This document shows, in pieces, positions 5,984-48,747 of a stretch of DNA of 64,000 nt. This DNA comes from Nonomuraea turkmeniaca (GTDB lineage: Bacteria; Actinomycetota; Actinomycetes; Streptosporangiales; Streptosporangiaceae): contig NZ_VCKY01000014.1 of NCBI RefSeq assembly GCF_005889735.1, positions 20,441 through 84,440 of the forward strand, written 5' to 3'. The notes under the pieces were generated by a model. It did not search any database and was not told where the DNA came from. It saw nothing but the letters and a program-made list of their open reading frames with translations. The translations under genes were made by a program, and so were the position numbers. The first letter of the stretch is position 1. Each line of letters begins with the position of its first letter.

Positions 5984-7195
5984 ATGACCGAGAAGACCTC
6001 GCCCGAGTCCCCCCTTCCGATCCGCACGGTCCTGCAGATGGTGGGCGGCTGGATCGGCAGACTCGGCATGGTCTGGGTCGAGGGCCAGATCACCGATCTG
6101 AGCGCCCGCGGCGGCACGGTGTTCCTGACCCTGCGCGACCCGGTCGCCAACGTGTCCGCCAGGGTCACCGCTCCGCGCGGCGTCTACGAGGCGGCGGTGC
6201 CGCGACCGGTCGACGGCGCCAAAGTCGTCATGCAGGTGAAGCCGGACTTCTGGGTCAACAAGGGCTCGTTCGCCTTCACCGCGCTGGAGATCCGCCCGGT
6301 CGGCGTGGGCGAGCTGCTGGCCAGGCTGGAGCGGCTCAGGCAGCTGCTGGCCGCCGAAGGGCTCTTCAGCGCCGACAGGAAACGGCGGCTGCCGTTCCTG
6401 CCGGGCACGATCGGGCTCATCTGCGGCCGCGACTCCGCGGCCGAGCGCGACGTGCTGGAAAACTCCCGCCGGCGCTGGCCCGCCGTGCGGTTCAAGGTCG
6501 AGGAAGTTGCCGTCCAGGGACCCTACGCGGTGGGCGAGGTGACCGAGGCGCTCCGCAAGCTGGACGCGGACACCGAGGTCGACGTGATCGTCGTCGCCCG
6601 CGGCGGCGGCTCTCTGGAGGACCTCCTGCCGTTCTCCGACGAGACGCTCGTCCGCACGGTGGCCGCCTGCCGCACGCCCGTCGTGAGCGCGATCGGCCAC
6701 GAGCAGGACAGCCCGCTGCTCGACATGGTGGCGGACGTACGCGCGTCCACCCCCACCGACGCCGCCAAGAAGGTCGTGCCCGACGTGGGTGAGCAGCTGA
6801 CGCTGGTGCGCCAGCTGCGCGACCGGGGGCGCAGGGTGGTGAGTGGCTGGCTCGACCGCGAGATGTCCTGGCTGACGTCCGTACGCTCGCGGCCCTCGCT
6901 GGCCGATCCCGTACGCGAGCTCGAGCGCAGGGCCGAGCAGGTCGAGTCGCTGCGCGACCGGGGCAGGCGCTCGTTGTCCGGCTCGCTCGACCGGGCCGCG
7001 GACGACCTGGTCCACCTGCGGGCCCGCCTGATCGCGCTGTCCCCGGCGGCCACTCTGGAGCGCGGGTACGCCATCGTCCAGCACCCGTCGGGTGAGGTGG
7101 TGCGCCTGGCCAAGGACGTGGCGCCCGGCTCGCCGCTGACGATCCGCCTGTCCGACGACAGACTGAACGTTCGGGTGGAAAACGAGGGCACATAG
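5984..7195 (+). CDS. xseA: Exodeoxyribonuclease VII large subunit
   Basis: 403 aa from ATG 5984. The N-terminal OB-fold is at residues ~15-105 ([24 protein letters not shown]). The XseA catalytic domain follows, with [46 protein letters not shown] and [26 protein letters not shown], all hallmark motifs. A C-terminal coiled coil has paired ERR...DRGRR repeats. With XseB it degrades single-stranded DNA to oligonucleotides. Unusually, xseB is not adjacent but lies 1.7 kb downstream on the opposite strand. Confidence 0.96.
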
Positions 7196-7220
7196 CAGGT
7201 TCGAGGTCTACGTTCGGGAC

Positions 7221-7577
7221 ATGAGAGGACTCGTGCAGGTCGCCCAGCACGCCGACGACCTCGACAGGGCCACGGCTTTCTACCGCGAAGTGCTCGGCCT
7301 GCGGCACATCGCCACCTACCGGCCGCCTGGGCTGGCCTTCTTCGACCTTGACGGCGTACGCCTGCTGATCGAGAAGAGCGCGCACTCGGCGGTGCTCTAC
7401 CTGGCCTCCGACGACCTCGAGGCGGATGTGGCCCGGCTGCGTGCCCACGACGTCGCGATCGTCGAGGAGCCGCATCTGATCTTCACCGACGACGGCACGT
7501 TCGACACGCCGGGCAGGGAGATCCGCATGGCCGCGTTCAAGGACTCCGAGGGCAACCTGCTCTGCCTCATGACCTGA
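7221..7577 (+). CDS. VOC (glyoxalase/bleomycin-resistance fold) protein
   Basis: 118 aa from ATG 7221. A single VOC domain with paired beta-alpha-beta units: VAQHADDLDRATAFYREVLGL at the start and FKDSEGNLLCLMT at the end. The metal-site pattern has a His near the N-terminus (QHA) and a terminal Glu in SEGN. Probably a small metal-dependent enzyme or a resistance/sequestration protein; substrate unknown. It starts 25 bp after xseA and may be cotranscribed. Confidence 0.85.
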   Translation: MRGLVQVAQHADDLDRATAFYREVLGLRHIATYRPPGLAFFDLDGVRLLIEKSAHSAVLYLASDDLEADVARLRAHDVAIVEEPHLIFTDDGTFDTPGREIRMAAFKDSEGNLLCLMT

Positions 7578-45725: not shown

Positions 45726-46880
45726 TTAACCCTTGTAGTTGAAGATCTGGCGCAAGGTGTGCTGGACCTCGACCAGGTCCTTCTGGTCGGCCATTACCTG
45801 ATCGATCGGCTTGTACGCCTCAGGGTGTTCATCCACCAAGGCGGCAGCCCGATCGCTGTTCCAGGTTCGACCGCTCATGGCCTCGGTCAAGGAAGTAGCT
45901 GAAAGCTCTCGCTTCGCCTTCGTGCGGGACATACGACGGCCCGCACCGTGGGAGCAAGAGTTGTACGACTCCGGGTTTCCACGACCCCGCACGATGTACG
46001 AGCGAGTACCCATCGAGCCCGGGATCACGCCTTCATCGCCCCTGTCAGCCTTGATGGCTCCCTTGCGGGTGATCCAGAGGGACTTGCCGTAGTGGGTTTC
46101 CTGCTGGGTGAAGTTGTGGTGGCAGTTAATGGTGCGGACGCGCTGGCCCTTGCCGACGACCTTGAACAGGGCGTTGATCAGTACCTTGTCCATGCGGGCG
46201 CGCGAGGCCATGGCGTAGTGCTGGGCCCACAGCATGTCCTCGATGTACGCGGTGAACTCCGGCGTGCTCTGCACGAGGTACGCGAGGTCCGGATCCTCCA
46301 GGCCCACCTCCTGCTTCTTCATCAGCTTCTTGGCGCCCGTGATGTGCATCTGGGCGAGCTGGTTGCCGATGCCGCGGGAACCCGAGTGCAGGACCGTCCA
46401 GACGTGGTCACGCTCGTCGAGGCAGACCTCGACGAAATGGTTGCCGGAGCCGAGGGTGCCGAACTGCTCGGCCACCTTCTTGGTCTGCTTCGGGTTGAGG
46501 TCGGTGTAGGGCAGGCCGAGGTCGCTGAGGGTGCGGTCGATCGACGGGTCGTCGTGGCCCTTGCCGACGCCGGCGGGGATGCGGTGCTCCACCATCGGCA
46601 TCAGGGCCGCGAGGGTGTCGGGCAGATCCGCGGCCGTGAGCGTCGTTTCCGTGGCCACCATGCCGCAACCGATATCCACGCCGACGGCGGCGGGAATGAT
46701 CGCGTTTTTAGTGGGGATTACCGAGCCGACCGTCGCACCGATGCCGACGTGTGCGTCGGGCATGAGAGCGACGTGGCCGGAAACGAACGGCAGGCGGGCA
46801 GCGCGTGCGGCCTGCGTGATCGCGCCTTCGTCGATCTCGCTGGCCCACGACAGCAGGTTCGGTGCGGGCTGGTTCGGCAT
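45726..46880 (-). CDS. rtcB: RNA 3'-phosphate/5'-OH ligase RtcB
   Basis: 384 aa from ATG 46880 with GAGGAG upstream. All active-site motifs are present: metal ligands in VGVDIGCGM, FGTLGSGNHFVEV, VLHSGSRGIGNQ and INCHHNF; the guanylated His in NSCSHGAGRRMSRTKAK. The C-terminus YKPIDQVMADQKDLVEVQHT LRQ is typical. It joins RNA 2',3'-cyclic phosphate or 3'-phosphate ends to 5'-OH ends using GTP and Mn2+. It is divergent from 47637-48368 and the permuted tRNA-like elements, suggesting a shared RNA-joining pathway. Confidence 0.95.
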   Translation of the reverse strand: MPNQPAPNLLSWASEIDEGAITQAARAARLPFVSGHVALMPDAHVGIGATVGSVIPTKNAIIPAAVGVDIGCGMVATETTLTAADLPDTLAALMPMVEHRIPAGVGKGHDDPSIDRTLSDLGLPYTDLNPKQTKKVAEQFGTLGSGNHFVEVCLDERDHVWTVLHSGSRGIGNQLAQMHITGAKKLMKKQEVGLEDPDLAYLVQSTPEFTAYIEDMLWAQHYAMASRARMDKVLINALFKVVGKGQRVRTINCHHNFTQQETHYGKSLWITRKGAIKADRGDEGVIPGSMGTRSYIVRGRGNPESYNSCSHGAGRRMSRTKAKRELSATSLTEAMSGRTWNSDRAAALVDEHPEAYKPIDQVMADQKDLVEVQHTLRQIFNYKG

Positions 46881-47636: not shown

Positions 47637-48368
47637 GTGACCAAGCTCAACCAGATCCTCGCCGTCGAGAAGGGCGTCAAGGCCGATGTCCAGCGCAAGG
47701 TGACCGACGTCTACCACACGGTGCAGAAGGCGCCTCTGCTGTCGGGCATCTCGCGCACCTACCAGCCGATCGACGACGAGGGAGAGCAACTGCCGCCGGA
47801 GTCGACCAGGGTGCAGGTGAAGGTCGAGGACGCCGTCAAGGACGCGGCGGACGCCCTGACGCGGCTGTTCGACGTGACCGCCACCAAGGACGTCGCGAAC
47901 TGCTCGGCCAAGGCCGACGTCGTCGTAGACGGGCGAGTTCTCCTGGAAGGCGTCCCGGTCACGTACCTGCTGTTCCTGGAGAAGCAACTCGTCGACCTGC
48001 GCACGCTGATCTCGAAGCTGCCCACGCTGGACCCGTCCGAGACATGGACGCGGGACGAGAACACCGACACGTGGCGCACCGAACCGGTCAAGACCACCCG
48101 CACCAAGAAGGTGCCACGCAACCACGTGCTCGCGGAGGCGACCGAGCATCACCCGGCGCAGGTGCAAGTGTTCACCGAAGACGTGGTGGTGGGCTACTGG
48201 ACGAAGATCGCCTTCTCCGGCGCTGTCCCGCAGCGGCGCGTCAACGAGCTGCTGGATCGGCTGACCAAGCTTCAGGATGCGGTGAAGTACGCCCGCGAGG
48301 AGGCCAACAGCGTCGAGGTCGCTGACCGGCGGATCGGCGACGCCCTGTTCGGCTACCTGCTCGGGTAG
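47637..48368 (+). CDS. Conserved protein of unknown function linked to rtcB and the tRNA-like elements
   Basis: 243 aa from GTG 47637 (AGG at -9; possibly near-leaderless). N-terminal helical VEKGVKADVQRKVTDVYHTV, then SGISRTYQPIDDEGEQLPPE, DVTATKDVANCSAKADVVVD, a hydrophobic VPVTYLLFLEKQLVDLRTLI helix and a basic TTRTKKVPRNHVLAEATEHH segment. The C-terminus is helical, ending DRRIGDALFGYLLG. I recall close homologues across actinobacteria annotated only as hypothetical or a DUF (DUF7873 from memory). Directly followed by the two permuted tRNA-like elements, so probably cotranscribed with them; a nuclease or RNA-binding role is a guess. Confidence 0.75.
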   Translation: MTKLNQILAVEKGVKADVQRKVTDVYHTVQKAPLLSGISRTYQPIDDEGEQLPPESTRVQVKVEDAVKDAADALTRLFDVTATKDVANCSAKADVVVDGRVLLEGVPVTYLLFLEKQLVDLRTLISKLPTLDPSETWTRDENTDTWRTEPVKTTRTKKVPRNHVLAEATEHHPAQVQVFTEDVVVGYWTKIAFSGAVPQRRVNELLDRLTKLQDAVKYAREEANSVEVADRRIGDALFGYLLG

Positions 48369-48399: not shown

Positions 48400-48415
48400 T
48401 GCGCAAGGAGCGCAA

Positions 48416-48545
48416 GCTGAAGATGAAGCTCAGCCTGAACAACGGTGACAGCGGAGGTTCGATCCCTTCCCCCGGCACTGCGGGCCGGGGTAGCCCAGAT
48501 GGTAGAGGCAGCCGATCAGTCTCAGACTCTCGCTCCAGATTCAGC
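48416..48545 (+). tRNA. Circularly permuted tRNA-like element 1 (3' half first)
   Basis: Order: anticodon 3' strand CGGT (48443-48446), T-arm GGAGG-TTCGATC-CCTTC (48453-48469), acceptor 3' strand CCCCGGC (48470-48476), loop ACTGCGG, acceptor 5' strand GCCGGGG (48484-48490), TA, D-arm (48493-48509), anticodon 5' strand GCCG (48511-48514). Acceptor pairing is 7/7. tRNA tertiary marks are present: T8-A14, G15-C48, G18G19, TTCGA loop. The flanks pair too: GCTGAA/TTCAGC (48416-48421 with 48540-48545), TGAAGC/GCTCCA with one mismatch, and CTGA/TCAG (48435-48438 with 48516-48519) beside the anticodon stem. If T 48516 is U33, the anticodon would be CAG (Leu); this is uncertain. CCA is not encoded. 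Confidence 0.8.
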
Positions 48546-48572
48546 ATTGCCGTCGGATACCAGATCGATCGG

Positions 48573-48676
48573 GTGAAGGCAGTGATTGTCGAGATGCGGG
48601 TTCGACTCCCGCTGGGTGCTCCACGTGCGCCCATGGCTTAATGGCAGAGCGCGACATCGTAACGTTTGACCTTCGC
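48573..48676 (+). tRNA. Circularly permuted tRNA-like element 2 (3' half first, CCA encoded)
   Basis: Order: flank GTGAAGG (48573-48579), anticodon 3' strand TGTCG (48587-48591), variable AGAT, T-arm GCGGG-TTCGACT-CCCGC (48596-48612), acceptor 3' strand TGGGTGC (48613-48619), T73, CCA (48621-48623), CGT, acceptor 5' strand GCGCCCA (48627-48633), TG, D-arm GCTT-loop-GAGC (48636-48650), anticodon 5' strand CGACA (48652-48656), flank CCTTCGC (48670-48676). Acceptor 7/7 with one G-U (G3-U70). Anticodon stem 5/5. T8-A14, A15-T48 and G18G19 are kept. Flanks pair 7/7 with one G-U. GTGA/TCGT can form a 4-bp helix next to the anticodon stem. If T 48657 is U33, the anticodon would be CGU (Thr); uncertain. 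Confidence 0.85.
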
Positions 48677-48714
48677 TCTTAAACGGCGCTGGTGCCACGA
48701 CATGACGGCTCACA

Positions 48715-48747
48715 GACCCCCGGGATTTAGGGCATTTCCCGGGGGTC
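48715..48747. terminator. Terminator after the tRNA-like array
   Basis: GACCCCCGGGA (48715-48725) pairs perfectly with TCCCGGGGGTC (48737-48747) across an 11-base AT-containing loop. It closes the unit made of the 47637 gene and the two tRNA-like elements. Confidence 0.85.

Follow-up and report, generated by a model that had tools for sequence, protein, structure and literature searches.

Permuted tRNA genes, in which the 3′ half precedes the 5′ half, are a feature of algae and archaea, and G3-U70, the alanine identity pair, is a defining feature of tmRNA. Bacterial Y RNAs reportedly mimic tRNA as well, as Chen is said to have described in RNA in 2014. In excerpts of a review (PMC8394870), the Y RNA YrlA mimics tRNA with a permuted tRNA-like head and combines a basal stem, which binds Rsr, with a tRNA-like domain, which tRNA enzymes modify and which binds PNPase. 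Tandem Y RNAs and an RNA-binding protein are encoded together in the Salmonella rsr-yrlBA-rtcBA operon, according to part of the text of PMC7790460. Two-piece tmRNA, as described in passages of PMC3978253, is likewise found in bacteria, and its tRNA-like domain shows circular permutation at the acceptor end.

The locus compared here with these systems lies in a 64,000-nt stretch of Nonomuraea turkmeniaca DNA (the window), for which an original prediction from the letters alone had proposed two tandem permuted tRNA-like genes and had known of no permuted tRNA gene described in bacteria. That view holds only in part, since YrlA (RF02553; PMC8394870, in excerpt) and two-piece tmRNA (PMC3978253, in excerpt) were already known as permuted tRNA-like RNAs of bacteria. 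The two permuted cloverleaves themselves are present where they had been placed, as seen in the window sequence and in a pattern scan that gave two matches on both strands of the window versus two in total in 200 dinucleotide shuffles. Both are on the plus strand and follow the order T-arm, 3′ acceptor strand, linker, 5′ acceptor strand, D-arm; these elements occupy 48453-48469, 48470-48476, 48477-48483, 48484-48490 and 48491-48509 in module 1 (48453..48509), and 48596-48612, 48613-48619, 48620-48626, 48627-48633 and 48634-48650 in module 2 (48596..48650). All seven acceptor pairs form in both modules, with a single G-U in module 2; T8-A14 is seen in both, and G18G19 is seen as well; and at 15-48, module 1 pairs G with C, module 2 A with U. 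They are two distinct permuted tRNA-like structures, simple duplication being excluded, and both are conserved 3′ of homologues of the gene at 47637-48368.

Two outcomes had been named as speaking against the prediction, namely rotated sequences scoring no better than shuffled controls and pairings left uncompensated in homologous loci, and the opposite was found for each. Thus, when the elements were rotated, with the loop built from flanking bases at the cut and CCA appended, ARAGORN called both as tRNA (tRNA-His in one case, no determined anticodon in the other) and none of 1000 shuffled rotations, and in homologous loci the pairing is kept by compensatory change. Read linearly, neither of the two pieces was called, as had been expected. 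ARAGORN called no tRNA or tmRNA across the window, where a divergent tmRNA could escape it, and no Rfam family reached its cut-off anywhere in the window. The only Rfam family matches at cut-off in eight further stretches were three ordinary tRNAs elsewhere.

The cloverleaves lie within a predicted RNA region of ~380 nt on the plus strand, directly after the gene for a DUF7873 protein. The region opens with a 5′ hairpin, P1 (48381..48399; CCCGCCC/GGGCGGG in the window sequence), which has like hairpins at the same place in other loci, followed by a small GCGC hairpin (48401..48413) from the consensus fold of 69 loci. Domain 1 (48416..48545 in the consensus fold) consists of helix B1/B2 (48416-48438 with 48522-48545) and the 4-bp stem P3 (48443-48446 with 48511-48514), bearing module 1. 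In the consensus of 69 actinobacterial loci, a segmented helix (GCUGA/UCAGC, CUG/CAG, AGC/GCU and CUGA/UCAG) leads to a stem of 4 bp, placed where a tRNA has its anticodon stem, and the T-arm, acceptor and D-arm follow. Domain 2 (48549..48709, from consensus fold and covariation) bears module 2; here a long stem with interruptions leads to P5 (48588-48592 with 48652-48656), which has 5 bp and likewise takes the place of the anticodon stem, and then to T-arm, acceptor and D-arm. The lower stem of domain 2 is made up of an outermost part of 6 bp (48549-48554 with 48704-48709), placed from the consensus fold alone, a second part (48559-48563 with 48689-48693) and a 9-bp helix (48571-48579 with 48670-48678). 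The RNA probably ends in a terminator-like 3′ hairpin with an 11-bp stem (48715..48747). The motif GGNTA occupies the loop of the best 3′ hairpin in 89 of 119 loci, versus 5.5% of shuffled loops, and is missing from the window's own hairpin loop; it is retained from actinobacteria to phages, for example in L175, L090 and L062.

The covariation alignments comprise 30 of 37 chosen loci, from 66 candidates, with the most divergent viral and phage loci absent. Over these 30 loci, 95.9% of the cells of domain 2 are paired versus a shuffled mean of 76.0, and double changes are found in 217 cells versus 63.4 in the shuffles. The figures for domain 1 are 94.7% of cells paired versus 87.1, and, for the whole domain, 63 double-change cells versus 14.0. 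None of 500 shuffles equalled either domain on any of five measures, and sliding the partners by 1-3 columns lowers the pairing to 33-48%. The two heads each have a covarying cloverleaf, with double changes at all seven acceptor pairs in module 1 and in module 2, and the basal stem of domain 2 covaries as well. Pairing in P3 amounts to 80-90%. Double changes occur in only two of the 15 pairs of the B1/B2 helix, the remaining pairs being nearly invariant.

A covariance model of domain 2, R1, was trained on 30 rows that include the window, 25 named-genome loci, three viral contigs and one phage record. In the window, itself a training row, R1 gives a full-length match at 48544-48702 (157.2 bits). 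A scan of named genomes found 502 DUF7873 relatives, and the counts given here are for the closest 80 of the 502, from Nonomuraea, Planotetraspora, Herbidospora, Sphaerisporangium, Streptomyces, Actinomadura, Streptacidiphilus, Kutzneria and other genera. In all 80 loci, 25 of which trained the model, R1 matches over its full length at 87-169 bits, and the RNA lies close 3′ of the DUF7873 gene on the same strand. Such a search of other actinobacterial genomes had been proposed with the original prediction, and it finds the RNA at the DUF7873 homologues. The conserved permuted pair thus stands, and the finding goes beyond it, to a conserved RNA locus that accompanies DUF7873 in bacteria and phages alike.

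The close pairing of RNA and gene is also seen in a set of 59 genomes (the window's own, 35 of the same genus and 23 more distant). DUF7873 was matched in 13 of them, all of the window's genus, at 14 loci, and the 14 strong R1 matches (130-169 bits) fall in exactly these 13 genomes, one of the genes being a remnant; the next best match is partial, at 54.1 bits. Matches down to E 0.001 extend to 32 of the 59 genomes, in a scan whose stricter filters and 50 scored candidates per genome could let RNAs without DUF7873 escape. Two weak whole-model matches without DUF7873 were seen in the same genus, at G035:C33:153219-153362 (40.7 bits) and G018:C190:4887-5019 (35.6 bits). A draw across the phylum found DUF7873 in six of 296 genomes, and a plasmid collection held four records with it. 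By protein, the family includes Nostoc and other cyanobacterial members and one Kofleriaceae protein.

Both modules are usually kept. A strict pattern scan found the two in 13 of the 14 loci of the genus and a single module in L013, where the module 1 acceptor stem has five of seven pairs. At this locus (L039/L013, G029:C11) DUF7873 is a short remnant with a stop, and the RNA persists with a damaged module 1 acceptor stem. Loss of the gene thus need not remove the RNA, which may act in its own right or else be decaying. Among 114 loci (the closest 80 of 502 from named genomes, plus the viral ones), two or three pattern matches lie downstream in 89, one in 20 and none in five, two of these five being viral contigs that end inside the DUF7873 gene. 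Module 1 is missed by the pattern in 11 of the closest 80, ten from Streptomyces and one from Sinosporangium (L092), and in the three inspected (L090, L101 and L112) the flanking stems are retained and a short hairpin replaces the module. Module 2 escaped the pattern in L087 and L099, as did both modules in L045, L047 and L048; in these loci R1 recovered module 2. As a separate observation, 25 of the closest 80 loci receive a linear tRNA call from ARAGORN that is false (Phe, Ala, Leu or undetermined); in the three inspected it joins the 5′ hairpin to T-arm 1, ~29-42 nt past the DUF7873 stop, as in L094, L100, L104 and other Streptomyces, so that spurious tRNA annotations may exist at these Streptomyces DUF7873 loci.

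The DUF7873 gene of the window (47637..48368, plus strand) encodes the predicted partner protein, of 243 aa, which matches PF25283 at 394.7 bits (E 2.3e-118; cut-off 27) and thus belongs to a family of more than 7000 proteins. No match was found to the NCBIfam, PHROGs or PADLOC models tested. An AlphaFold2 model with good local confidence (pLDDT 93, pTM 0.67) has long helices and long beta strands, and structure comparison gave no clear known relative and no fold match suggesting a nuclease. In the open-access PMC literature we found no mention of DUF7873 and no description of a system of DUF7873 with a two-headed RNA. Elsewhere in the same genome, another DUF7873 gene is accompanied by a permuted pair of its own (L025/L014, contig C157). 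A gene for the RNA ligase RtcB lies 0.8 kb upstream of DUF7873 in the window (45726-46880, minus strand).

Are the modules tRNA genes? As such they would be permuted genes whose transcripts, once processed, are joined by a ligase such as RtcB to give working tRNAs; the original prediction had spoken of permuted tRNA-like genes. ARAGORN's acceptance of the rotated sequences as full cloverleaves and the RtcB gene 0.8 kb away fit this reading. However, clustering of the neighbourhoods puts RtcB next to DUF7873 in one of 14, and neither consensus fold has an anticodon loop; from the place of the anticodon stem, the strands extend into further, conserved stems. The acceptor ends were compared in 93 of 124 loci, those with two pattern matches at normal spacing. 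C74, whose retention again suits a tRNA gene, is kept in 84 of 93 module 1 linkers and 92 of 93 module 2 linkers, A73 is kept in 85 of 93 in module 1, and NCCA is present in 23 of 93 and 27 of 93 linkers of modules 1 and 2, respectively. Against this, the module 1 acceptor is closed by a 4-nt loop in 12 of the 93, and module 1 is the one missed by the pattern in 11 of the closest 80 of 502 loci. The lack of an anticodon loop, the 4-nt loops and the missing module leave tRNA-gene identity unsupported, and we regard it as very improbable; what stands is the permuted tRNA-like structure. Likewise, compared with the permuted tRNA genes of algae and archaea, the 3′ half does precede the 5′ half, but an anticodon loop is absent, nothing indicates that a mature tRNA is made, and the heads sit on long stems. 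By title, no bacterial permuted tRNA gene was among the open-access PMC matches listed for permuted tRNA and RtcB.

The same 93 loci give the remaining tRNA-like positions. At the tertiary (Levitt) pair 15-48, module 2 has A-U in 81 loci and G-C in 12, with no exception; module 1 has A-U in 76, A-C in 13, G-C in two and something else in two. Module 1 linkers are 23-48 nt long in 14 loci. Because C74, and in module 1 A73, are kept, some factor that recognises tRNA probably reads the acceptor end. Given that the acceptor ends retain this tRNA-like N73-C74 start, recognition or cleavage by RNase P is a plausible prediction from the sequences.

A relationship to two-piece tmRNA was weighed as well, as that RNA has the same circular permutation of a tRNA-like domain at the acceptor end (PMC3978253, in excerpt), and phage locus L180 has a fragmentary beta_tmRNA match (24.8 bits; cut-off 84). 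Here, by contrast, there are two heads rather than one and a link to DUF7873, and no tmRNA was called by ARAGORN in the window, with the caveat that a divergent one could escape. The alanine-type G3-U70 pair is not conserved, occurring in one of 30 loci in module 1 and six of 30 in module 2. We consider kinship with tmRNA exceedingly remote.

The head itself is of a known, YrlA-like kind, because the Rfam YrlA model RF02553 covers module 2 end to end (48570-48682, model positions 1-114, 30.7 bits, below the cut-off of 69) and YrlA has a tRNA-like domain. In both RNAs the permuted head runs T-arm, acceptor hairpin, D-arm (the order is given in excerpts of PMC8394870 and also by the Rfam alignment), and a basal stem is formed from 5′ and 3′ parts, here the lower stems, covarying in domain 2. 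The RNAs might accordingly be plain YrlA Y RNAs acting with cellular Ro60/Rsr, with DUF7873 a mere neighbour or minor cofactor. The best YrlA scores, 27.4-35.7 bits in ten of 11 bacterial DUF7873 loci scanned (none in L046) and 31.3-37.6 bits in five of seven phage loci scanned (none in L176 and L178), can be read this way, although all remain under 69. A Ro60 gene is present in the window's own genome (G000:C207), and Ro60 was matched in eight of the 13 DUF7873 genomes with the Pfam model and a genus-specific Ro60; in the other five, however, no intact Ro60 was detected, neither query matching in G012, G024, G027 and G034 and only a 27-residue fragment being found in G032. Within neighbourhoods of 14-20 kb, Ro60 lies near DUF7873 at two of 14 loci, L030 and L033, ~7-8 kb away.

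Moreover, the Ro60 loci of the genus bear their own, different Y RNAs, which score 39.8-44.5 bits at best against RF02553, likewise under 69, and share mainly the tRNA-like head with R1. Most of their matches cover R1 positions ~48-111, the head alone, and a few are weak and full length (L041, 32.1 bits; L023/L040, 23.5 bits). Six of the eight pattern matches at these Ro60 loci have 4-nt acceptor loops, whereas the acceptor loop of the DUF7873-linked RNA keeps N-C74. Unlike YrlA, the latter has two heads in most loci, basal stems largely not shared in the R1 comparison and, in most relatives, a 3′ hairpin with a GGNTA loop, and it is tightly tied to DUF7873 instead, with no Ro60/Rsr gene at the locus. 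We therefore think the plain YrlA explanation unlikely, if worth keeping in mind. The RNA is very probably a DUF7873-linked, Y-RNA-like structured RNA. Its tandem elements and the nearby RtcB gene in the window recall the Salmonella rsr-yrlBA-rtcBA operon (PMC7790460, in part), unlike which RtcB is found in one of 14 DUF7873 neighbourhoods and no Ro60 gene is present at the window locus.

Concerning the window's own genome, the Ro60 (TROVE) gene on G000:C207 has a permuted tRNA-like Y RNA 5′ of it (L026, 5840-6250), with a pattern match at 6001 and apparent extra copies with a repeated flank motif; it is below the YrlA cut-off and differs from the DUF7873-linked pair. The open-access PMC literature yielded nothing on Ro60 and Y RNA in Streptomyces.

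The family extends to viruses. Seventy-three annotated phage records encode DUF7873, many of them close kin, from phages of Gordonia, Arthrobacter, Rhodococcus, cyanobacterial, Klebsiella/Serratia, Rhizobium and Vibrio hosts. A scan of viral contigs gave 34 DUF7873 loci, of which two end inside the gene and 32 are usable, with near-duplicates among them (L146/L170, L158/L159, L162/L163 and L154/L155). At E up to 0.001, R1 was found in 32 of the 32 usable contigs (29 full length; three trained the model) and in nine of ten phage records (five full length; one trained the model). The matches in L144 and L179 are weak, those in L179 lying ~2 kb from the DUF7873 gene, and Vibrio phage L183 has no R1 match. 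The RNA stretch carries no RNA annotation in any of the nine R1-positive phage records; in phage Ziko a small hypothetical gene overlaps it.

In seven of the ten phage records DUF7873 is in or beside tRNA genes, within ~2.5 kb. The gene sits inside a tRNA array in Phendrix, NiceHouse and Rhizobium TM2_3B and at the array end in Mimi. ARAGORN found tRNAs in the examined stretch of seven of ten phage records; among the viral contigs it did so in 18 of 32, where a few calls may be this RNA, miscalled. The phage setting hints at a possible tRNA-related role. In an unannotated gap of the Phendrix tRNA array (Gordonia phage, L174 572-1100), we also noted an Rfam tmRNA match of 89 bits.

The same setting could suit a counter-defence or toxin-antitoxin system, in which the RNA would be a decoy or antitoxin, DUF7873 the toxin or controlled protein, and phage tRNAs would be shielded from host nucleases. 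Its patchy occurrence in bacteria (13 of 59 relatives; six of 296 in the phylum draw) and the lack of any other gene family common to more than five of the 14 DUF7873 neighbourhoods are compatible with this. Nevertheless, the heads offer no anticodon loop as bait for anticodon nucleases, the protein matched no defence library and no nuclease-pointing fold, and protein and RNA are strongly conserved, which would be unusual for fast-evolving conflict systems. We judge this explanation decidedly unlikely.

A further possibility, suggested by the position near the 3′ side of the gene, on the same strand, in the closest 80 of 502 named bacterial loci, is a 3′-UTR element that sets the stability or level of the DUF7873 mRNA by recruiting tRNA-binding proteins. 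Arrangement is looser in some loci, however: in viral contig L152 the RNA (6939-7232, minus strand) is on the opposite strand to DUF7873, ~1.2 kb away, in L179 it is ~2 kb off, and in G029 it persists where the gene is degraded. A 3′-UTR role is hence quite improbable.

We lean towards a Y-RNA-like, Ro60-independent RNP, in which DUF7873 likely binds the long basal stems of the two-headed RNA. The region would be transcribed with both tRNA-like heads on one RNA, and the DUF7873 protein would grip the basal stems, giving a Y-RNA-like particle that does not need Ro60. By analogy, the heads may serve as docking sites for tRNA-handling proteins, such as RNase P, tRNA-modifying enzymes, PNPase or a phage factor, and the particle might direct how RNA or tRNA is processed or degraded, in the way that YrlA does for Ro60/Rsr.

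More broadly, we see it as evenly balanced whether this is an undescribed RNP machine, a Ro60-free counterpart of the Y RNP that actinobacteria share with large phages carrying tRNA genes, cyanophages among them, and that uses both permuted heads together to hold tRNA-handling enzymes. The locus contributes a structured RNA, widespread and not covered by any Rfam family at cut-off in the stretches scanned, and offers a testable role for more than 7000 unexplained DUF7873 proteins. If the proposal is true, permuted tRNA mimicry in bacteria and phages would extend beyond Ro60 particles and tmRNA, and large phages would maintain a system of this kind within or next to their arrays of tRNA genes.
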